Shown: piece by piece, positions 11,984-41,319 of the stretch
Numbering within the stretch: position 1 is the first letter of the stretch
Layout of the letters: each line of letters begins with the position of its first letter
DNA from: a virus
Length of the DNA: 45,991 bases
Direction: 5' to 3' (one strand)
Virus record (IMG/VR): IMGVR_UViG_3300021364_000042
Span: 1-45,991 of that record
Translations under genes and position numbers: made by a program
The notes under the pieces: generated by a model
Databases searched by the model: none
The model's input: only the letters and a program-made list of their open reading frames with translations
What the model was told of the DNA's origin: nothing

Positions 11984-13519
11984 TTAGAACTCGATTACGA
12001 TTTTGATGTCTTCGATTTGGTCTCCAGCGCGAGTAATCGCGCCTCTGTTATCTATGTAGATAACTTCTCCACTGTTAGGTTGGACCTCTGGTTTTGCATA
12101 ACCGTTGGTAAACGCCATACCAAGGTCATATTCAGTATTGTTAATGACACGAGTTGACGCACCAGAAACAATGGGGAAGTTGATATCAGGGTCAGCAGAT
12201 GCACCTGATGTGCTACCAACTACAGGGTTACCACCTTCAAACTCAATCAAGTTACCAGTGAATTCGGGGAAAATACCGTCAATTCTATTCTGGTAATACT
12301 TAAGGACCTTTGTGGTGCTATTCCAGGAGATCACACGACCCCTAGCAGTCACTTGCTGACCACCAATTGTGCGGGACTGAGTAATAATTTCGTCAGTCTG
12401 GAAGTTACCAGTGAAAGAAGGTGAGAAGATAACTGCTTTTGTCGCAGACAACGTAAGATCAGCAGTCAATTCTTGTGTGCCATACTTATTGGGGTTGATG
12501 ACAAGACCGATACGACGATAATCGTTATCAGTTGGGAAGTCACCACTACCTTCAGCATAGGTAAACTTGGTGTTGATCATCACTCGGAAACCACCGAGCT
12601 CGGTGGCAGGATCAGCACCATGACCCTTTGTAGGAGGCACGACCACTTCGACGTTACCACCTGTGCCTGTGCCAGCGCCGATACCGTTGACCTCATCAAT
12701 CACCACCTTACCGAAGGTGTAACCGCTACCACCCGAAGTCACTGTTGCCGAAACAATTCGACCACCGTCAACAACCAGAGAAACACGACCACCAACGCCA
12801 TCGCCTTTGATGGGCACGTTTTCATAAGTGCCGTTGTTATAACCAGCACCAGAGGATGCGATAATAACAGTATCGATTTCACCACCGATTGCGTCAGACA
12901 CCACAGCAGTGTCACTCAGCACGGGCATGTATTCGTTGGAGAAGAATTTCAGCACCTGACCCACAGGGATCGTATACATATACTTCCAACGATAACCGTC
13001 AGCAGTGGTAATAATAGAAGTTGAAGTACCCGTAGGCTCAACAGTAGAAGGCTTACCGTTAGGATCACTAGGGGATGTCCCGTTATAGATGCACTTATAG
13101 ACCTGATACGATGAGTTAACAACGTAAAAGTCTGCGTCATAAAGTTTGGTAGCACCAGAAGACGCGGTTTTAGTTGAGCTATAGTCATGACGATACATGT
13201 CATAAACATAACCCAAGCCACCAGTGGTCTGCTCAGGAGGAATCCAGTCGGTGCGTCTAATAACCTGAATAGTATCATTCGCCAGAACTCTCTTCATAGA
13301 GATCATATCGGAATAGTCATCCGCAAACTCTTGGAATGAATCCACAGGGTCTGGGGGAGCATTCTCATTGTCCCATGGTTGAGGGCGACCGATGAAAACA
13401 TACAGTCGATCTCTATCACTACCAGCATCGAGGTCAGACTGAGTAGGGTCAGGACCCTCCAAAGATTTTCTAAACCTCTCGGCAGTAAAGATTCTAAACT
13501 GGTCGGTAAGTAGCGCCAT
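11984..13519 (-). CDS. gp8: Baseplate wedge protein gp8
   Basis: This is a baseplate wedge subunit of the T4 gp8 family. The N-terminal part has the expected order of motifs: FRIFTAERFRKSL, LYVFIGRPQPWDNENAPPDP and RRTDWIPP, followed by YVVNSSYQVYKCIYN and DGYRWKYMYTIP. The C-terminus (SGEVIYIDNRGAITRAGDQI) aligns with the T4 ending SGEMIYMENRPPIIMAMDQT. At 511 residues it is much longer than T4 gp8 (334). Part of the excess is a GGxGY insertion near residues 215-300 (IIASSGAGYNNGTYENVPIK and TVTSGGSGYTFGKVVIDEV), a unit shared with neighbouring structural genes. An ATAAATA motif lies in the 34-base gap before the start. The gp8 identity is secure; the role of the insertion is unknown. Confidence 0.93.
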   Translation of the reverse strand: MALLTDQFRIFTAERFRKSLEGPDPTQSDLDAGSDRDRLYVFIGRPQPWDNENAPPDPVDSFQEFADDYSDMISMKRVLANDTIQVIRRTDWIPPEQTTGGLGYVYDMYRHDYSSTKTASSGATKLYDADFYVVNSSYQVYKCIYNGTSPSDPNGKPSTVEPTGTSTSIITTADGYRWKYMYTIPVGQVLKFFSNEYMPVLSDTAVVSDAIGGEIDTVIIASSGAGYNNGTYENVPIKGDGVGGRVSLVVDGGRIVSATVTSGGSGYTFGKVVIDEVNGIGAGTGTGGNVEVVVPPTKGHGADPATELGGFRVMINTKFTYAEGSGDFPTDNDYRRIGLVINPNKYGTQELTADLTLSATKAVIFSPSFTGNFQTDEIITQSRTIGGQQVTARGRVISWNSTTKVLKYYQNRIDGIFPEFTGNLIEFEGGNPVVGSTSGASADPDINFPIVSGASTRVINNTEYDLGMAFTNGYAKPEVQPNSGEVIYIDNRGAITRAGDQIEDIKIVIEF

Positions 13520-13553: not shown

Positions 13554-15428
13554 TTATTCGTCCTCGTTTCTAACAAACTTTGTATATTCAACAGATTTAA
13601 TTGTTGCCGTTGCAGCACTAAGATTGCCCTGCAAGGTTTCTTCAAGCTCCCACTTATATGTAGGATCGTTATCAACGATATCTGAAATTGACAGAGTATA
13701 TTGTCCTGTCTTTGGTCCTGCAGTAACAGTATTGATAGTTGCAGAAACACCACTATTTAATCCCTGACAAGTTTCTCCTGGTTGGAAACTAATCAGATTG
13801 TTGATGTATTCAATAACAATAGTGCCTGTAGATTGATGTGCATCACCATCTCCAAGTTGACCTGCAGATTGAATAGTTGCAACCAGTTGATTTGGACTAC
13901 CGTCATACACCTGATCACCAACCTGGAAGAGTGTGGTGTTTTGTCCACCAATAGTTTCTTCGATACCATATTTAGATGATGCAATACCACCATCCAAATT
14001 AACTGCATTCTCAAATTCAGTATCAGTATTGATCAGGTCGGGTATATTATCGCCAAATTGCTCAACACCATCTTCATCAAGAAATGACTCATCATCGTCT
14101 TCAAACCTACGATTGAGAATTAAAGACAGGGGATTTGTAAATGCAACAATATCATCACCTTCAGATTCTACTAATGTATGTGGTTCTTGACCTGTCCCTG
14201 ATGATGCAGCAGATCCAGCAACGAATGCAACAATCTTTGCCTTTTCACCTGATCTACCAGCATCAATAAATGCCAACTCGTCAATTTCAAAGGTTACATA
14301 TAGTGCTCTCTCATCTCGAATCCAATCATAAACAATTGCAACTCGGTTGTTGGAGTTTTCTACAACACGTCTAACTTTGTCTGTTACCTGGAATTGATAG
14401 CTTGTAAGACCTGTATTGGGATCATCTTGCAATTGGTCAAGGATAACTTTTTGATCAAATCTAAAGTTGGTGCCTCTATCTACTCCAGTAAATGATGTTG
14501 CAGTCTTACCTGTATATCTGACTACTTCTCTACCAATAAGAAGTTTTCCTGACCCTGGGAATGCATTAGTAGTCTCAACGTTAATTGTTGTTGCGTTGGG
14601 AGAAAGATTGTTCAGCAGTCCTGTCAAATTATAAATGACAGAGTTTAGAGACTGTCTATTTCTTGCCTCTCTAATTAAATCTGTGTCTCTTGTAAAAATT
14701 ACTTGAGGTTCATTAACGTATCCACCACCGCCAGACAGTAGATCAATATTTGTGATAACACCAAGATCAATAAATGCTTCTGCAGTAGCACCAGATCCAC
14801 CACCACCGATAATTTGAATTAGGGGAGGTGTCTCAAAAAATTCACCTTGATTTGTTAACTGGACACTGGTAACACGACCGAATCTATTTACTGCTGCAAC
14901 ACCAGTAGCACCTTGACCACCGCCACCAGAAATAACGATATTGACATCTTCTTCTGTATAATTCTGACCTTGGTTTTCAATAGTCAGACCAGTGATCAAA
15001 CCAGTGACTGGGACCAATTCAGATCCAGATCCACCACCGCCTTTAATCTCTGCAGTTGAATTGAAATAACCATCACCAGGGACAGTCATTTGAATAAAAT
15101 CAATTGCTCCAGATCCATCCTCTTTTAGGAAGATATTGCCTGTAGCAAAACCATTGGAATCTTCGTCGGTGATCTCTAATCTCAGGGGATCATATCCTTC
15201 ACCTGGATCTAGAATCTCTACAGCAGTAATTGATCCTTCTTCACCCTCAATAACTGCTCTAAGGACAGCCTCACGAATGGGTGTGCCAGAATTGGCAATA
15301 CGAAGTCTGGGGGGATCGTTTGGATCGTATCCTGATCCTCCATCAACAACATAAACTTCCCTGACTCCAAATATACTATTGAAGACAGGGGTAATTACTG
15401 CACCAGATCCAGGGACTGTTCTTGCCAT
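13554..15428 (-). CDS. GGxGY-repeat virion structural protein (624 aa)
   Basis: I recognise no named family over the full length. Residues about 20-260 are tandem glycine-rich beta units of the form GGSGYxxxPxxxxxGGGGSGAxAxA (for example VYVVDGGSGYDPNDPPRLRI and QIIGGGGSGATAEAFIDLGV). A central segment (LLIGREVVRYTGKTATSFTG) resembles a short motif seen in other phage tail proteins here. The C-terminal part contains an acidic stretch (RRFEDDDESFLDEDGVEQFG) and two GExxxGxxSGxxA-type units. The ATG is three bases after the preceding stop, so it is co-transcribed with the gp10-like gene. A peripheral baseplate or fibre protein is the likely role by context. No enzymatic motif is visible. Confidence 0.85.
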   Translation of the reverse strand: MARTVPGSGAVITPVFNSIFGVREVYVVDGGSGYDPNDPPRLRIANSGTPIREAVLRAVIEGEEGSITAVEILDPGEGYDPLRLEITDEDSNGFATGNIFLKEDGSGAIDFIQMTVPGDGYFNSTAEIKGGGGSGSELVPVTGLITGLTIENQGQNYTEEDVNIVISGGGGQGATGVAAVNRFGRVTSVQLTNQGEFFETPPLIQIIGGGGSGATAEAFIDLGVITNIDLLSGGGGYVNEPQVIFTRDTDLIREARNRQSLNSVIYNLTGLLNNLSPNATTINVETTNAFPGSGKLLIGREVVRYTGKTATSFTGVDRGTNFRFDQKVILDQLQDDPNTGLTSYQFQVTDKVRRVVENSNNRVAIVYDWIRDERALYVTFEIDELAFIDAGRSGEKAKIVAFVAGSAASSGTGQEPHTLVESEGDDIVAFTNPLSLILNRRFEDDDESFLDEDGVEQFGDNIPDLINTDTEFENAVNLDGGIASSKYGIEETIGGQNTTLFQVGDQVYDGSPNQLVATIQSAGQLGDGDAHQSTGTIVIEYINNLISFQPGETCQGLNSGVSATINTVTAGPKTGQYTLSISDIVDNDPTYKWELEETLQGNLSAATATIKSVEYTKFVRNEDE

Positions 15429-15431
15429 CTA

Positions 15432-16916
15432 TTAGACCACTACAATGTTACCAACCATTCCAGAGTGAATTGTGCATTGATACACATATGTCGTGCCAGC
15501 ACTCAATGTCATTGGCACTGTCCAATACTGCACACCAGTTTGCGATCCTGTTACACCTTGGGTTACTGCAGCTCCACCATTTGTTTGTCTCAATGCAAAT
15601 GGGTGACTAGATCCAGTGAGGTTGTTGAATCTATATGTAAATCCACGATACACATAGATCGTTGGATTGTTACTGGTGTTGTTATATCCACCTCCAGTGA
15701 ATGAATATCCATCAACTGTGGTGCCATCAACTTCAAAACCAACACCAGAAGATACTTGTGTTGTCCATGCCTCTGCCCCACCATCATAAATCAACACCTC
15801 ATTGGCGTTTGCTGAGGGAAGAAGACCTTGAGCAGCAATAGTTACGGTATTTGATGTAACTGATGTAGATACGCCGCCAGTGCCAACAATATTCAATGTT
15901 GATGTTGCCAAAGCAGCAGTAGTGCTACCAGTGTCACCAGCAACAGTCCTGTAAACCTCTTGGACTACGTTAGGGGAGTCGTTTGTGATAGTGAGGTTAT
16001 CGCCGTTAATAGCAGTGCTAATTCCAGTGCCACCAACGAAGTTAATAGTAGTAGAAGTGCTATTCGCAGATTTACTTCCACTGTCCGATCCAATAGTTGC
16101 AAAGATATTTTGGTCTGGATCTCCCAGAGTGCCAGTCATGTTGATGGTGACTGTATCTCCAGTGATCGATGTCTGAATATTTGTGCCGCCAGCAATAGTC
16201 AGGATATCAGTTGCTGCCGATGCTGTAGTCTGACCACTGTCTGCTTGGACAGTTTCAAACAGGTTTTGAGTGGTGCCACCACCGCTACCATCGCCAACTA
16301 TGTCGTTAGCAGGCTCCCACTTGCTATTGGTATTATTCCACTTCAGCACTTGACCATCAGAAGGACCACCGCCAACTGTAAGATCAACGTCATCTAGATC
16401 ACCAACGGATGATCCAGTATCTAGGAGTTGTGTCCATGCACCAGAGTGTGCAAAGTAACCATGTGCTTCATTATGGACATGTGCAAACATGCCATGGTGA
16501 GTAGAAGCATCAGGCAGATCTGCCAGGTCATCAAAGAAGTTGGAATACTTCAGTTTACCATCAGCACCATCAATGTAAGTCAGAGCATCACCAGTGCCTC
16601 CACCCCACAACTTAATCTTACCTGTGCCGTTGGGTTGGATTACTACGTCACCATTTGACTCTGAAGTGATCTGAAATGTCTTGACATTCAGGTTTGCACT
16701 CAGTGAATCAAGGTGTGCTTCCGAAAAAACAGATCCCGTCCATCGCAAGACCTGCCCCGTAGCAGGAGTGCCGATACTGACCTGAAGATTAGTCTCGTTA
16801 CCGAGTGTCGAGTAAATCTCATCAATAACGTTATTGAGTTTGATAGCACCATCTCTGAGACTATCACCCAATCCGTCATTAGCAGATGAGCCGATATTTA
16901 GGTTTTGCTTTGCCAT
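15432..16916 (-). CDS. Baseplate-associated protein: gp9/gp10-like N-terminus and C-terminal cupredoxin-like domain
   Basis: The N-terminus (KQNLNIGSSANDGLGDSLRD, then GAIKLNNVIDEIYSTLGN) matches the start shared by T4 baseplate proteins gp10 and gp9 (IG, DG-GD-L, GG-KIN, EIY), suggesting attachment to the wedge. The middle holds phage-structural repeats (for example SDGQVLKWNNTNSKWEPAND) and three related beta units, each with an F/Y-x-T-V/I-x-x-D-S/T-G motif. The last 90 residues look like a cupredoxin: a strand GFTYRFNNLTGSSHPFALR with His438, then YVYQCTIHSGMVGNIVVV with Cys481, His484 and Met487. The C-x2-H-x2-M spacing is that of amicyanin. This gives a complete set of apparent type-1 copper ligands. 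Metal binding is not proven; the fold may serve only as a structural module. No good ribosome site is visible. Confidence 0.85.
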   Translation of the reverse strand: MAKQNLNIGSSANDGLGDSLRDGAIKLNNVIDEIYSTLGNETNLQVSIGTPATGQVLRWTGSVFSEAHLDSLSANLNVKTFQITSESNGDVVIQPNGTGKIKLWGGGTGDALTYIDGADGKLKYSNFFDDLADLPDASTHHGMFAHVHNEAHGYFAHSGAWTQLLDTGSSVGDLDDVDLTVGGGPSDGQVLKWNNTNSKWEPANDIVGDGSGGGTTQNLFETVQADSGQTTASAATDILTIAGGTNIQTSITGDTVTINMTGTLGDPDQNIFATIGSDSGSKSANSTSTTINFVGGTGISTAINGDNLTITNDSPNVVQEVYRTVAGDTGSTTAALATSTLNIVGTGGVSTSVTSNTVTIAAQGLLPSANANEVLIYDGGAEAWTTQVSSGVGFEVDGTTVDGYSFTGGGYNNTSNNPTIYVYRGFTYRFNNLTGSSHPFALRQTNGGAAVTQGVTGSQTGVQYWTVPMTLSAGTTYVYQCTIHSGMVGNIVVV

Positions 16917-16937: not shown

Positions 16938-16944
16938 TATTTAG
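16938..16944 (-). promoter_or_regulatory. CTAAATA motif overlapping a stop codon
   Basis: CTAAATA on the minus strand contains the TAA stop of the 529-residue gene and ends 21 bases before the next ATG (16916). It resembles a late-promoter core, but its overlap with an obligatory TAA raises the chance of coincidence. Confidence 0.3.
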
Positions 16945-18530
16945 GTGCCATCAAAGGTTTGACTTGTGGAGTCAAACGTGCTACTTGTGCTATCGAAACG
17001 ATTAGCAGTATCTCCACCACCACCAGATCCAGCAACTGTCAAAGTAACAGAGTTGGAATCGAGAGGTGAGTTTTCTGCATTATTTTGTGGGATTGGTCCT
17101 CTAATACGACAGCGGTATTTGTAACCAGTCATATATGCAAGAGCAGTCACTGAATACGAGGTGTCAGTTGCACCTGTAATCGCAGCGAAGGCAAATCCAC
17201 CATCAGTAGATCTGTACCATTGATATGATATGGGTCCGTTTTCTGGGAGGATCTGAGCATTAACTGTAAACGTTGCAGTCTCACCAACATTGACAGTCGC
17301 ATTTTGGGGTTGCAGAGTAAATTGCAACGTAGGAGGTGCGGGAGGAGTCCCTCCATCACCGCCACCCTGATCAGGAATAACAGTCTCGATAGTGAAGGTT
17401 GCGTCTAGATTTTCTCTAGATGTAAATCCCATAATGTATGGGAATGTTGCAACATCTACATCAGATGCATCTGTAGAAAGGAAATATGCAAATGTGCCAT
17501 TTTGGAATTCTGGTGTAACGCAAAATCTTCCATTATGGTAATCAAGTGATCCAGTGCCCTCTACATACTCCCAGTCTTCAATGAGAGCGCCTGCAGGGGG
17601 GTTGTCAGAGTTATCACCATATTCAGGTCTCCCTGGTGCCTCATTATCTTTAATTCCATAAGATGAGGTCATGTTAGTGACACCACTCAAGTTGTCCCAT
17701 GGATCGTTATACCCATAGGGACCATAGATTGGGAATCCATCAAAAGCGATACCTATAATCTTAGAATGTCCGTCAGGATGTCTAATATTATTGCCGTTAT
17801 ACTGAGTGCTTCCGTAGTAGTCGTTATAACCCGCCATTGCTGAATTTGCTTTCCAGCAATCCAAGAAATGGGAATCGTGATAGTGATATTGACCCGATTG
17901 CTCAGGGTGACCACCACAATTATCAGGACCAAAATTTACTATATTTGGATCAAAGTGTGCATTCCAACTAAACCCAAGAGGAGGCTGACCTCCAGCGCCA
18001 GCACTAGGATTGAAAATAGCAACGCCATTAGCAGCGATACCAATCATACCCAGAGGTGTTTCTAAACGAGCATTTCTCTGGTCATAATATTCATATGTGC
18101 CAGTAGTGCCTGATTCTTGAGTCCTCATGATGAGGTCAAGACGGTTATCAGTCGCTAACCAACACTCATCTTCTATTGATGTAAAGGTTGTGCCTTTATA
18201 TAAAAATTTTCTCTTAATGCCATCACTAAACACAAAAAGAATGTGGTCACCAGGACGAATTTCATTATCTGATCCAAACAAACCATTGTCATTTACTGAC
18301 AAGTCAATGGATCTGATGAAACCATCTTGAATCCATGCATCACTATCAAAAGTGCGACTGATACCAAACGTGCCGCCACGATAGAAGAAGTCATGATCAA
18401 AATCCTGCTCAGTTACTGAGTTAGGATTATTGTCATTTGGGAACGTGCCATACCCCACGGGGTCGGGCAGTCCATCTGCCGCCACCGTGAGGATGTTTGT
18501 GGCTTGGTCATAACTGGCGGTTGCAGTCAT
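16941..18530 (-). CDS. YHYH-domain and Ig-like virion protein (529 aa)
   Basis: Residues about 160-370 form a YHYH domain: the literal YHYH (GQYHYHDSHFLDCW) near residue 216, then GHSKIIGIAFDGFPIYGPYG near 255-275, and DYHNGRFCVTPEFQNGTFAY toward the end. Residues about 400-500 form an Ig-like domain (TVNVGETATFTVNA, ISYQWYRSTDGG, GYKYRCRI). The C-terminus is a short FDSTSxTFD repeat. YHYH domains are known in bacterial surface proteins and phage structural proteins, but their biochemical role is unclear. Both modules recur in the giant gene just upstream, suggesting module exchange between neighbours. An exposed virion protein that contacts the host or decorates the baseplate is likely. No catalytic role is claimed. 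Confidence 0.87.
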   Translation of the reverse strand: MTATASYDQATNILTVAADGLPDPVGYGTFPNDNNPNSVTEQDFDHDFFYRGGTFGISRTFDSDAWIQDGFIRSIDLSVNDNGLFGSDNEIRPGDHILFVFSDGIKRKFLYKGTTFTSIEDECWLATDNRLDLIMRTQESGTTGTYEYYDQRNARLETPLGMIGIAANGVAIFNPSAGAGGQPPLGFSWNAHFDPNIVNFGPDNCGGHPEQSGQYHYHDSHFLDCWKANSAMAGYNDYYGSTQYNGNNIRHPDGHSKIIGIAFDGFPIYGPYGYNDPWDNLSGVTNMTSSYGIKDNEAPGRPEYGDNSDNPPAGALIEDWEYVEGTGSLDYHNGRFCVTPEFQNGTFAYFLSTDASDVDVATFPYIMGFTSRENLDATFTIETVIPDQGGGDGGTPPAPPTLQFTLQPQNATVNVGETATFTVNAQILPENGPISYQWYRSTDGGFAFAAITGATDTSYSVTALAYMTGYKYRCRIRGPIPQNNAENSPLDSNSVTLTVAGSGGGGDTANRFDSTSSTFDSTSQTFDGT

Positions 18531-33500: not shown

Positions 33501-36500
33501 AGAGTTTGTTGGTGTTATCGGTAATAGGACGTGAGTTGACAATAATAACATCCTGTTGACGCAACTCGTGCTCAACATCGGTAGTGATAACACCGTAAGG
33601 ACGATCACCAATCATCTCCTTGGTGTAACCAAGGATAGTCTGACCCTTAACAGATTCGATAATTGCAGATGCACCAAATCCACCAGTGCCTTCGTTGTCG
33701 AAGAAAACAGTATCATTAACCTGATAAGACTCACCAGGGTTTTCAATCACGAAACCATCAATCTGAGCATTTTCAAACTGAGTGGTTGTTTCAACTTCGA
33801 TGTCAACTCTAGATTCTTCAGAAACCTGAGGGAAGTAATCATAAATCTGCAGAGTTGCCTCTTCAGACATCTCAAGGATTTCTTGCTGCTCCAAAGCATC
33901 AATCAGACCATCATTGTTGCTATCTTGGATCTCAAAGATGATGGGATATCCTTCGATCTCAGTCGTCAGGACATCTGCTTCTTGGTTGGGTTGACGATCA
34001 ATGTCAATATCAACGTCAACATAAGGATCTCTATATCTTACAACGTCAGAAGGAATGTTTTCCTGTGTTGCTGTCTGGCTGAAATTCCATTCATCTGGAA
34101 GTGAATTAAACTGAGGTCCAACAATGTATGGGAATTCTGCAATACCAGCATCTGATGCATCAATAGTAATGAAGTATGCATAGGTGCCATCTGGGAATTC
34201 TGGTGTCTTACAGAATCGTCCGTTATAATTGTCCAGGTCACCAGATTGGAAATCATAGGTATAATCGTCAACAAATGATCCTGCAGGGTATTCATTGATG
34301 GATGGACCATCTACACGAGCAGGGTTTGGATTGGTCGCTTCATCATAAACAACGTTATCTTTCAGTTTATAGGAAGTACGCAGTCTTCTAATGCCGCTGT
34401 TTTGGTCAGTGGGATCGATATAACCATATGGACCATAAATGGGGTTACCATCAAACGCCCAACCGATGATTGGGGAGTGCTTGTAGTTTGACTCAAGCTC
34501 TTGGAATTGTTGAGTTACAGGATTAAGGAATACGTTATCACCAACAACATAACGCAACTCTTTAGGATCGCTAAGGTGAGCAAACTCACCACCAAACTGG
34601 TTGTTATATCCAGTAAAGACATATCCTCTAGAGAAGTCATACTTATTGACAAGATCATACTGTAGGTTTCTATTCCACTTGAAGACATCGGGGGTGAATG
34701 TTGCCAATTCACCAATTGATTGGAGTCTGACTGTGGTATTGCCTTGGGTATAACCAACACCTCTGTTGGTGATGGTCACAGACAGCACACGACCCTTATC
34801 TTCACCAGTTGTGCCAATAGTTGCAATACCAATAGCACCAAAACCATCACCATTGATGATTACGTTAGGTGCAGTAGTATAACCACTACCTGAGTTAATA
34901 ATAGCGATAGACACAATACGCCCATTGATCACAATGGGTTGTGCCAGAGCACCTTCACCAGAGTTGACTCTAACTTCTGGGTCTGAAGTATATCCAGATC
35001 CAAAGTTGGTGATGTTAACACCAGAGATAGGACCACGGACGTTTGCAATTGCAGTTGCACCACTACCGCCACCACCAGTAATAGCAACGCTAGGTTGTGA
35101 AGTATATCCACTACCTTGCTGCTCAACCAGAATTCTAGTAACACGACCACCAGTGATAACTGCTTGTGCAGTTGCACCACTACCACCGCCACCAACAATA
35201 GAAACCAGAGGGGACTCGGTATATCCACTACCCTGATTAGTAACAGTAAACGATGTCAGACTACCATTAACAACAACTTCACCAGCAGCACCTGTGCCAC
35301 CACCACCTGTGATTTCAAGGTTTGGTTTATTACCAGCATCATAATTTACACCAGGATTTGTTACTTCGACTTTAGTCAAAGGTCCAAACTGGACATATTC
35401 TGAAGACTTATATGACCAAATTGATACCCCATTGATCCAAGATCCAATGGGTGTATTTTCCTTAACGTCTTTACGCTCAGAGATAGTCTGGACGTTTCTG
35501 GGGAATCTCAGCAATTTACGCTGGTTGCCAGGAATTAGTGCTGATCCAATGAAAGGACCAATTCTGTAGTTGGGCAGACCAGATGCTGCCACATACACAT
35601 AATCATCATTAAAGAAGGAGTTTTGGATGTTGGTTGTAAACTCACTTACAACTTTATTGATAGATGCTTGATCAGACTTACCTCTATTAAGGTCAACCGA
35701 CAACAGAATATTACCCTGAGGGATAATATCAGTAGGTGTATTCAGTTGATATGAGAAAGTAAGAGGGTCAATACGAGATGTGACTGTAAAGGTGCCGTTA
35801 TATACAACAGGGTTTGCACCATAAATTGTCACCTGATCGGAAACCAACAAACCATGAGGATTATCACAATAAACAGTTGCGGTCTGATTATTAACACCAC
35901 CAGACTCAATGCGATCAACTTGAATTAGTTTTTTGACATTATACAACCAAGAAGACAGTTTTTCATCGATTGCTGTCGATCCAAGGTTAGCAACTTTCAG
36001 TTTGTCACCTTGAATATAATAAGATCCAGTGTCATTCAGGACGGTAGTGCCTGCCTCAGCAATACCAAGGACACGCAGTTTACATTCTTGTGCTGTGCCT
36101 CTATTGACATATACAAAAATGTCAGATTGGACTACAGTGCCAGGATCCCAGTCCTCAACAACACCATTTCTGCTTCTGGTGCATTCAATAAACTGGTTGA
36201 GTGATTTTTCTTTATATTGGACCTCTTCTTCGTCGTTAATCCGAATTGTGCCGTTTCTAGCAGGCCAACCAATGGTGGAGTCAACAGTAATGATTTGACC
36301 ATCAGTAGTCAGAGGCTCTACAAGAGTAGTTTTGTAAGGAATCTTAAATTCACCAGTCAGAGTTTCCTCTGAGATTGCCAATTCGTAAATTGTGTCAGTA
36401 CCTTCAATAATAGTAATGACATTTTCAATTAGAGCATTTGCTGCCTTGATATTCAGGTCAACAGGATCGGCATACTGATTCAACTCAGAGTCGATCAGGT

Positions 36501-38780: not shown

Positions 38781-40904
38781 TCAGAAACAACCGTCTGGCA
38801 CTGGATACTCGAAAGAATCCATTGGGTAATCAATGATATTTATACCCCCTGTAGGACCGAAGTTGTATCCCGAGAAGTTGTTGGGATCGAAGGAGGGGAC
38901 AGGGATTGTGTTAATCGTAAAGTCAATTGGATTGACCGTTGGATTAAAGATTGTGGGGTCAACGCCAGGTGGAATGTCAATAGATCCACTATAAGGCACA
39001 ACCTGAATGGGTAGTCTTTCTGTATTATCGGGAGTATCAGAAATTGCCAGAGGTCCAACACAGACTTTACCTGTGCCATAATCAACAGTGCCCACTGTTG
39101 GGTTGAGAATCAATTCTGTCTCATCACGCTTAGTGACTAGCATCAGATTTCCCTTGCCATCATCTCTAATGTTGACAGGGACCAAGACTTCGGTGGAAAT
39201 GTTGGAATTAAAGCCAGGGGTAATGATTTGAGCACCAGTTGATTCGTCAAGTGCAAGGTTTACCAAGTCTTCGGTATAACCAGTTGCATAGAAGGTGCCA
39301 GACTTGACCACAGAGAATGAAGGGTCGCATTTTGTGCCACCGACGTTACCATCGGGATCTGTACCGTCTCCACCATTTCCTTTTCCATCAGAATTACCTG
39401 AATAATCCGATGGATCATAAATTCTGTTACCAAAGTCAAGACATTGAGTAAATACTTGTCCCCAAGTAAATTGATCCAGATTTTGACCCAAAGTAATCTG
39501 AGTTACGCTACCAGAAATGGATGTATCGCTGTTATCAATCACAGCACCAAATTTAGATCCGTCAATACGGTTATTAAAGCGGTTTGTTTGGCCTGCTTTG
39601 TTAAATTGGTCAATTGACTGCAACACTTTGGTGCCAAGTTGCGCTCCAGTGTTGGAAGTTGCGTTTCCGTCGTAGTAAACGTAAGATTTGGGAATAATGT
39701 AGTAAGAAGTGGGATCAACGATGACAGGCTCGATTGATGCAACTGCAAACTTCTTCAAATCATTCTTAATTTTCGCTTTTGTGCTCGCATTGAGTTTTGT
39801 GCCCGTCTTAGGGCGAATAGCGATAAAGACTTTACCGTAAATTGGAGGAGAAAGTCTCTCACCACCATATGCGGTGACTGCAGCCGCCTGTGGATATACC
39901 TCAGAGACGATGTGCTCATAATCATTCTCTGTCACAGCACGGTTTTGCGTTGCATACGCTCTAGGTGCTCTAAATTTGACGCTCAGACCCGTTTCGCGTT
40001 CTTCACCTTGCTGTGCTGCTTCCATGACAGTCAGTTTCATGCCTGAAGTAGGCAGCACGCGCCCATCAGAGTCAACAATGTTGCCAATGAAGCTAAATGA
40101 CTTGGATCCGTTTGCTGCTACGCCGTCAGTTTGCACATATTCCAGTCTAATGTACTCACCATCGATCAATTTGCGCCCCAAAACGCCATCACCGAAGATT
40201 AAACGGTATCTAAGGTCGTCAGTTTCCTCCAAATAGTAAATTCTGGAGTTTTCCGTTAACGCAGTAGCGTTATTTACCAAACTATAAGAGTCAGTTTCTG
40301 ACGATTGTGCATTTGGAGAGATATTAACGAAAAGAAGATCAGTGTCTACGTTTTCTGCGGGGATCAGAAACTCTTGTTCTTTCGTATAATCGACTGTATA
40401 GTTGTATGAGAGCAGATTTCCTTGATAAATGATGACATTATCAAAGACTGCCAGTCCAGTTGCGGAATCTACGGAGACTGTGATGTCTCTTGTGAGTGTA
40501 AATGCAAAAGAATCGAGTGCATTCTCCGCAACAAACACATCTCCCTTCTTCAAAGTTGCAAATTCTGGAAATGTGATGCCATTCAACGATATTTGCGTCT
40601 GTGCTTCGATCTTGACACACGCTTTAGGCGCTTTAATTGACCTAGGAGTGTAATTTAACTGCTTTGCAATGCGGACAATGTTGTCTCTGACGGTTGCAGT
40701 CTCAAGAAATGACTCATTCAGCGCCATATTAGCGTTGAATGCTGTATAATATGTGTTATAAGCGAGGATATCGATCAGGTACGATGCGCTACTTCCCTCA
40801 AAATCGTAATCCGAAAACTCTTTCCGAGTCCTGAGGTAAGATCTTATGGATTCTTTGATCTCAAAGAAGTCCAGAGACGTAAGTTGTGAGGGAATTGCTG
40901 ACAT
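38781..40904 (-). CDS. gp6: Baseplate wedge protein gp6
   Basis: A T4 gp6-family wedge subunit, 707 residues against 660 in T4. The N-terminal region is characteristic (LTSLDFFEIKESIRSYLRTR, ASYLIDILAYNTYYTAFNAN, MALNESFLETATVRDNIVRI). The mid-part carries YYLEETDDLRYRLIFGDGVLG and RAPRAYATQNRAVTENDYEH, followed by KVFIAIRPKTGTKLNASTKA, as in phage baseplate gpJ/gp6-type proteins. Near residues 497-525 there is a glycine/aspartate-rich linker (SGNSDGKGNGGDGTDPDGNV), and the C-terminal extension after it (about 180 residues) is proline- and asparagine-rich. The start is one base after the gp25 stop, with GAAGG as ribosome site. In T4, gp6 dimers with gp7 form the core of the wedge. Confidence 0.95.
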   Translation of the reverse strand: MSAIPSQLTSLDFFEIKESIRSYLRTRKEFSDYDFEGSSASYLIDILAYNTYYTAFNANMALNESFLETATVRDNIVRIAKQLNYTPRSIKAPKACVKIEAQTQISLNGITFPEFATLKKGDVFVAENALDSFAFTLTRDITVSVDSATGLAVFDNVIIYQGNLLSYNYTVDYTKEQEFLIPAENVDTDLLFVNISPNAQSSETDSYSLVNNATALTENSRIYYLEETDDLRYRLIFGDGVLGRKLIDGEYIRLEYVQTDGVAANGSKSFSFIGNIVDSDGRVLPTSGMKLTVMEAAQQGEERETGLSVKFRAPRAYATQNRAVTENDYEHIVSEVYPQAAAVTAYGGERLSPPIYGKVFIAIRPKTGTKLNASTKAKIKNDLKKFAVASIEPVIVDPTSYYIIPKSYVYYDGNATSNTGAQLGTKVLQSIDQFNKAGQTNRFNNRIDGSKFGAVIDNSDTSISGSVTQITLGQNLDQFTWGQVFTQCLDFGNRIYDPSDYSGNSDGKGNGGDGTDPDGNVGGTKCDPSFSVVKSGTFYATGYTEDLVNLALDESTGAQIITPGFNSNISTEVLVPVNIRDDGKGNLMLVTKRDETELILNPTVGTVDYGTGKVCVGPLAISDTPDNTERLPIQVVPYSGSIDIPPGVDPTIFNPTVNPIDFTINTIPVPSFDPNNFSGYNFGPTGGINIIDYPMDSFEYPVPDGCF

Positions 40905-40905
40905 T

Positions 40906-41319
40906 TTATGCCTTCTCTAAGAGAAACTCGATAGTTTGGACAACAGTTTCACCAACAATGGTATAATCAAGCTCAACTGCAATAGCATTTATATCAGAAT
41001 CATCGGTGAGAGTCACTTTTGTGACTTGTATTCTAGGTTCTAAGCGTTTTAAGCAGTTTCTAATTTCCCCTTCTATTTCGTCTGCACTAAAAACATCCCA
41101 AGGCTCAAACAAAAGACCCTTAATTCTAGATCCAATCGCAGGTTGGAAAGGTCTTTCACCAAGATCAGTCAATAAAAGGTTTCTAACAGCTTGCTTAATC
41201 GCATTTTCATTTTTAACTATGCCAAAATCGCCAGTAGATGGATTAGACTTGAAAGAAACTGACAAGTCTTTATATCCTCTACTGACGTATTTTTCAGATC
41301 TGAATCTGTAAGATGCCAT
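40906..41319 (-). CDS. gp25: Baseplate wedge protein gp25
   Basis: A gp25/GPW-family baseplate wedge protein of 137 residues, close to T4 gp25 (132). Typical motifs are present: AIKQAVRNLLLTDLGERPFQ, IGSRIKGLLFEPWD, and the EPR motif (CLKRLEPRIQVTKV). In T4, gp25 sits at the inner baseplate and its EPR motif contacts sheath and wedge partners. The start overlaps the upstream stop by one base (TAATG), with AAAGG six bases before it, so translation is probably coupled to the 62-residue gene. Confidence 0.96.
   Translation of the reverse strand: MASYRFRSEKYVSRGYKDLSVSFKSNPSTGDFGIVKNENAIKQAVRNLLLTDLGERPFQPAIGSRIKGLLFEPWDVFSADEIEGEIRNCLKRLEPRIQVTKVTLTDDSDINAIAVELDYTIVGETVVQTIEFLLEKA

Follow-up and report, generated by a model that had tools for sequence, protein, structure and literature searches.

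The cupredoxin superfamily is already known, as is the soluble plastocyanin of phages, which cyanophages carry as the auxiliary metabolic gene petE (PMC3037559, PMC2984593). No description of a cupredoxin or plastocyanin domain in the baseplate or tail fibres of any phage was found in the open-licence literature searched, and within that literature the novelty stands of what the preliminary description of this locus had called unusual, a copper centre on a virion baseplate protein. The domain examined here is encoded in a stretch of viral DNA of 45,991 nucleotides (IMG/VR record IMGVR_UViG_3300021364_000042, hereafter the window). It resembles the amicyanin of Paracoccus (1aac, 1sfd) in its C-x2-H-x2-M loop, its upstream His ligand, its cupredoxin fold and its Foldseek matches, but amicyanin is a free periplasmic electron carrier, not a virion component, and is known to have Asn after the first His where the phage domain has Pro. 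The four ligands of plastocyanin (2plt; petE) align one-to-one with those of the phage domain, whereas its loop is C-x2-H-x4-M, it serves as a thylakoid electron carrier and phage petE is a separate gene. The type-1 site of multicopper oxidases shares the Pro after the ligand His, as in the well-known HPxHLH motif, but the phage protein has a single domain and no trinuclear centre.

Among virion proteins, T4 gp9 and gp10 (1pdp, 5iv5) are homologous to the phage protein over the N-terminal ~40-110 residues, while neither matches its C-terminal domain, the cyanophage C-terminus being a cupredoxin. The 'Ferrojan Horse' phage tails offer a parallel in that a metal is held by a tail protein; there the metal is iron in His-rich fibre sites, whereas here a copper-type site lies in a baseplate connector.

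The domain ends a 494-aa ORF (15432..16916, minus strand) that is a gp9/gp10-like baseplate wedge tail-fibre connector by Pfam, PHROG and T4 structure matches. The ORF matched Pfam T4_gp9_10_N (PF07880, E=7.3e-10) and PHROG 677, 'baseplate wedge tail fiber protein connector' (E=5.4e-137), and its relatives in GenBank carry the family name 'baseplate wedge tail fiber (protein) connector', which denotes gp9. Its N-terminal ~40 residues matched the structures of both T4 gp10 and T4 gp9, and with the family profile the gp9 match extended to residue ~111. The earlier label 'gp10-like' was thus only partly upheld, since the N-terminus matches both proteins, yet the PHROG and GenBank family is gp9. 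No T4-type C-terminal domain was met in the protein, the T4 matches ending by about aa 111. The full-length AlphaFold2 (AF2) model was confident only in part of the N-terminal half and in the C-terminal domain, and we draw no claims on architecture from it beyond the separateness of the latter. The N-terminal part is joined to the cupredoxin by about aa 216-392 (15741..16271, minus strand), a linker and Gly/Thr-rich repeat segment modelled as low-confidence beta structure with pLDDT mostly 40-68.

The ORF sits inside a T4-like baseplate cluster comprising a gp8-like gene (11984-13519), a 624-aa wedge protein (13554-15428), a 529-aa YHYH-domain virion protein (16941..18530, minus strand; PF14240, E=9.5e-36), a giant virion protein of 6742 aa with laminin-G-like and partial YHYH domains (18547-38775, minus strand), and gp6-like (38781-40904) and gp25-like (40906-41319) genes. 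Membership of the connector family is met by the gp9/10 N-terminal domain together with this neighbourhood of gp6-, gp25- and gp8-like genes. Cyanophage P-TIM40, the nearest isolate among the collected phages, has an identical gene order, and genes of 20-26 kb comparable to the giant ORF occur in related phages. No further cupredoxin domain was found elsewhere in the window at E<0.05.

The C-terminal portion of the protein reads ...GSSHPFALRQT...TTYVYQCTIHSGMVGNIVVV and then stops. For aa ~393-494 (15435..15740, minus strand), which we read as a genuine cupredoxin, the fold family, ligand set, conservation and genomic context are shown, although the fold is a predicted one and ligand distances remain unmeasured. 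Significant sequence homology is one line of evidence. A profile of 30 phage homologues matched plastocyanin 2plt (E=8.8e-6) and amicyanin (E=1.7e-4) in the PDB, and one of 97 sequences matched the three-domain Cu-nitrite reductase (2.9e-7), plastocyanin (7.2e-7) and amicyanin (1.4e-6); in the alignment of the latter profile to 2plt all four ligands of the domain coincide with the four copper ligands. AF2 run on the 97-sequence alignment returned a beta-rich C-terminal domain (pLDDT 94.8, pTM 0.87) in which H438 precedes a strand, C481 lies at a strand end, and H484 and M487 fall in the next loop, the Cys-His-Met group sitting at the turn of the last strand. Nearly all of the 50 listed Foldseek matches in the PDB were cupredoxins, cupredoxin-domain enzymes or multicopper oxidases, with a best probability of 1.00 and moderate TM-scores of about 0.4-0.6 to solved cupredoxins. 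Membership of the superfamily is therefore met by homology, fold and ligand topology, copper binding itself being untested.

Curated models do not call the domain above their cut-offs in either Pfam or NCBIfam. Residues 393-494 alone scored 19.2 bits against Pfam Copper-bind (E=0.0017), under the curated cut-off of 21.2 bits, and neither the amicyanin (TIGR02657, 16.1 vs 110.2 bits) nor the plastocyanin petE (TIGR02656, 13.9 vs 87.85 bits) cut-off of NCBIfam was met. The phage domain has an amicyanin-like loop, but it is not an amicyanin. The preliminary description, made from the sequence alone, had proposed a cupredoxin-like domain with four ligands and C-x2-H-x2-M spacing, and the profiles, AF2 and Foldseek confirm it; the structure prediction that it named as a check gave a cupredoxin fold at high confidence, with ligands in register with those of plastocyanin by alignment only. 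The extent it gave, the last 90 residues (15432-15720), was slightly short.

The four residues of the type-1 site are H438 in SSHPFALR (15603..15605), C481, the sole Cys of the protein (15474..15476), H484 (15465..15467) and the axial ligand M487 (15456..15458), all on the minus strand. Each is invariant among 97 homologues reaching down to 27% identity, where only five columns are invariant, these four and one Gly. The His and Cys codons vary synonymously among relatives (CAC and CAT for H438, TGC and TGT for C481), and the loop changes length from C-x2-H to C-x4-H with ligand identity kept. Retrieval by motif carries a selection bias, which we offset with two ligand-blind samples. When loci were retrieved by the N-terminal 166 residues only and complete 3' ends were counted, all four ligands (His...Cys-x2/4-His-x2-Met) were present in 54/54 distinct complete gp9-like proteins. 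An HMM with its ligand columns masked gave 244 distinct domain hits, and by our own tally 229 of the 236 full-length ones kept the four ligands. Homologues lacking the ligands, an outcome that the preliminary description had accepted as refuting, thus failed to refute it.

True ligand losses in the masked-HMM sample were limited to L288, L309 and L316, all non-gp9 proteins. As for the other exceptions, L060 is a truncated contig, L089 is an apparent circular permutation, in L094 the domain ends beyond the region that was aligned, and in L287 that region contains the His but lacks a Cys motif. Most of the losses apparent in a first tally had been register shifts (C-x4-H loops, or a His displaced by one column) or contigs cut short. 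Since a few paralogues have lost the ligands, the fold does not need them, and their universal retention in gp9-like proteins is all the more meaningful because the fold exists elsewhere without them.

A single Cys is found in 33/43 aligned full-length gp9-like proteins, including the 494-aa protein. An intramolecular disulfide is excluded for C481, as there is no second Cys with which to form it, and a metal ligand is the best account of the residue. We reject simple decay to a scaffold on the strength of ligand-blind retention and synonymous codon turnover; the earlier argument against such decay is supported by these two observations and by the solitary C481. An intact type-1-like site is under strong purifying selection in this virion connector family; that it holds copper is an inference. 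Pro follows the first His in 95/97 aligned sequences, and P439 is invariant among aligned gp9-like proteins. Small cupredoxins usually have Asn at this position, and multicopper oxidases have His-Pro.

Among annotated phages the domain occurs in 337 records, nearly all of them from Synechococcus and Prochlorococcus phages. The domain search and the N-terminal search returned equal numbers of Synechococcus (260) and Cyanophage (50) records, which is consistent with the N-terminus and the cupredoxin travelling together in these records. Related cupredoxins also occur outside gp9-like proteins, with ligands mostly intact: in tail fibres (P-SSM2, Sf-CH8), in S8-peptidase proteins (S-CAM4, S-CAM1), in YHYH proteins and in one freshwater actinobacterial phage. 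The domain belongs to a modular family of tail-appendage cupredoxins, mostly of marine T4-like cyanophages. Cellular relatives were not upheld, as four of four matches to assembled-genome contigs were phage-like contigs in MAGs or assemblies. One contig attributed to Nonlabens xiamenensis (NZ_RMVE01000006.1, 188 kb; L098) shares 99% identity with cyanophage P-TIM40 across 6.4 kb and is likely to be a contaminant in a flavobacterial assembly.

Several relatives depart from the common arrangement. Two gp9-like open frames of 645 and 641 residues (L065 and L071) have an extra cupredoxin-like domain inserted at aa ~180-303, with Cys-x2-His-x2-Gln, in which Gln takes the axial place as it does in stellacyanin. 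In the S8-peptidase-like proteins of L089 (2248-4503) and L337 (826-3081, phage S-CAM1) the strand with C-x2-H-x2-M comes before the one with the His; all four ligands are present, and these two separate records are likely to hold circularly permuted cupredoxins. A protein of phage S-SCSM2R annotated as PetE (L335, 1797-2303) has a tail-type N-terminus followed by this domain and adjoins an S8 peptidase gene, and automatic annotation of this kind may inflate counts of phage petE.

YHYH proteins are frequent companions of the connector. A YHYH-like ORF was present in 211/250 loci with a gp9-like ORF, many of these loci overlapping, and YHYH-like and cupredoxin regions shared one ORF in 24 distinct sequences, 22 of which had all four ligands. 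In the Actinomycetia phage DSL-LC01 the cupredoxin is nested within the YHYH domain, ahead of an NGRYCVTP block. Loci that tie the two families by fusion or nesting include L227 (2219-3970) and L336 (1622-2992). The window itself holds a second, partial YHYH copy (34156-34530, minus strand) inside the 6742-aa protein. It is possible that YHYH shares the task of the cupredoxin, but we regard this as no more than a lead.

In the absence of metal data, the reading we lean towards is that the C-terminus is a true cupredoxin with a type-1-like copper site and a structural role in the tail. The N-terminal part would dock in the baseplate wedge, as T4 gp9 and gp10 do, leaving the cupredoxin at the far end, where one copper ion would clamp the strand bearing the His to the loop bearing Cys, His and Met and thereby stiffen the face to which the tail fibre or adjacent appendages are held. 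The docking position, the copper occupancy and the assignment to structure or assembly rather than electron transfer are all inferred. Occupancy in the virion is on balance favoured, though copper binding is untested, and electron transfer in a baseplate is unlikely. The fibre-holding role rests on analogy with gp9, and no virion position has been demonstrated. Against the copper reading stand the Pfam score below its cut-off, the moderate TM-scores and the Pro in place of Asn after the first His. Moreover, phage proteins fold inside the host, in a cytoplasm with little free copper, and the route of copper loading is unknown. Of the roles floated in the preliminary description, copper binding and stabilisation of the protein come closest to this inferred reading, while action at the host surface is kept only as a weak rival.

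An unlikely alternative is a redox or metal-sensing switch, in which copper is acquired only once the cell has lysed, from seawater or from the dying host, and its loading or reduction alters the domain, readying the tail fibres for adsorption. In known cupredoxins a full type-1 ligand set lets Cu(I) and Cu(II) interchange quickly without much rearrangement, and in its favour, too, loop length varies with ligands constant and the domain sits in proteins of the adsorption apparatus. However, there is no partner and there are no redox data, and sequence cannot separate a switch from a static clamp. We also doubt that the domain is a structural module holding another metal such as Zn, or none, with the ligands kept for a polar cluster or for folding. 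Type-1 sites are known to bind Zn, Hg or Co, and the three ligand-less paralogues keep the domain; yet, tolerant as the fold is of ligand loss, the gp9-like proteins retain the ligands without exception, and a lone conserved Cys with Met is typical of copper and not of zinc.

Recognition of copper-loaded tail domains by a host metal-uptake receptor, in effect a copper 'Ferrojan Horse', seems very unlikely. The tail location agrees with it, and the literature on iron in phage tails discusses a comparable idea, but T4 gp9 and gp10 are known as baseplate connectors and pins and not as receptor binders, no host receptor is known, and the domain is also found on S8 peptidase and YHYH proteins with other roles. 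An enzymatic or electron-transfer function like that of host plastocyanin is all but excluded: it can appeal to plastocyanin homology, to the existence of phage petE and to the PetE label in S-SCSM2R, but the domain is fused to a baseplate protein whose gene lies in a cluster of virion genes, the S-SCSM2R protein is itself tail-type and next to a peptidase gene, and identity with phage petE is ruled out by the NCBIfam scores and genomic context.

If the structural copper site is real, it would be the first virion-borne blue-copper-type site described, as far as the literature searched shows, and phage-host pairs already in laboratories would allow the proposal to be tested directly. A bolder reading, which we offer tentatively and would not yet back, is that the particles of marine T4-like cyanophages are copper metalloparticles, with type-1 sites at gp9-type connectors, tail fibres and YHYH proteins acting in tail assembly or fibre deployment, so that infectivity would be affected by the supply of copper or by the copper that hosts set free at lysis. 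T4-like cyanophages rank with the most abundant viruses in sunlit ocean waters, and their Prochlorococcus and Synechococcus hosts are copper-sensitive. If their tail connectors do hold copper, virus particles would have a part in the chemistry of trace metals, and infection of both hosts may be influenced by copper.
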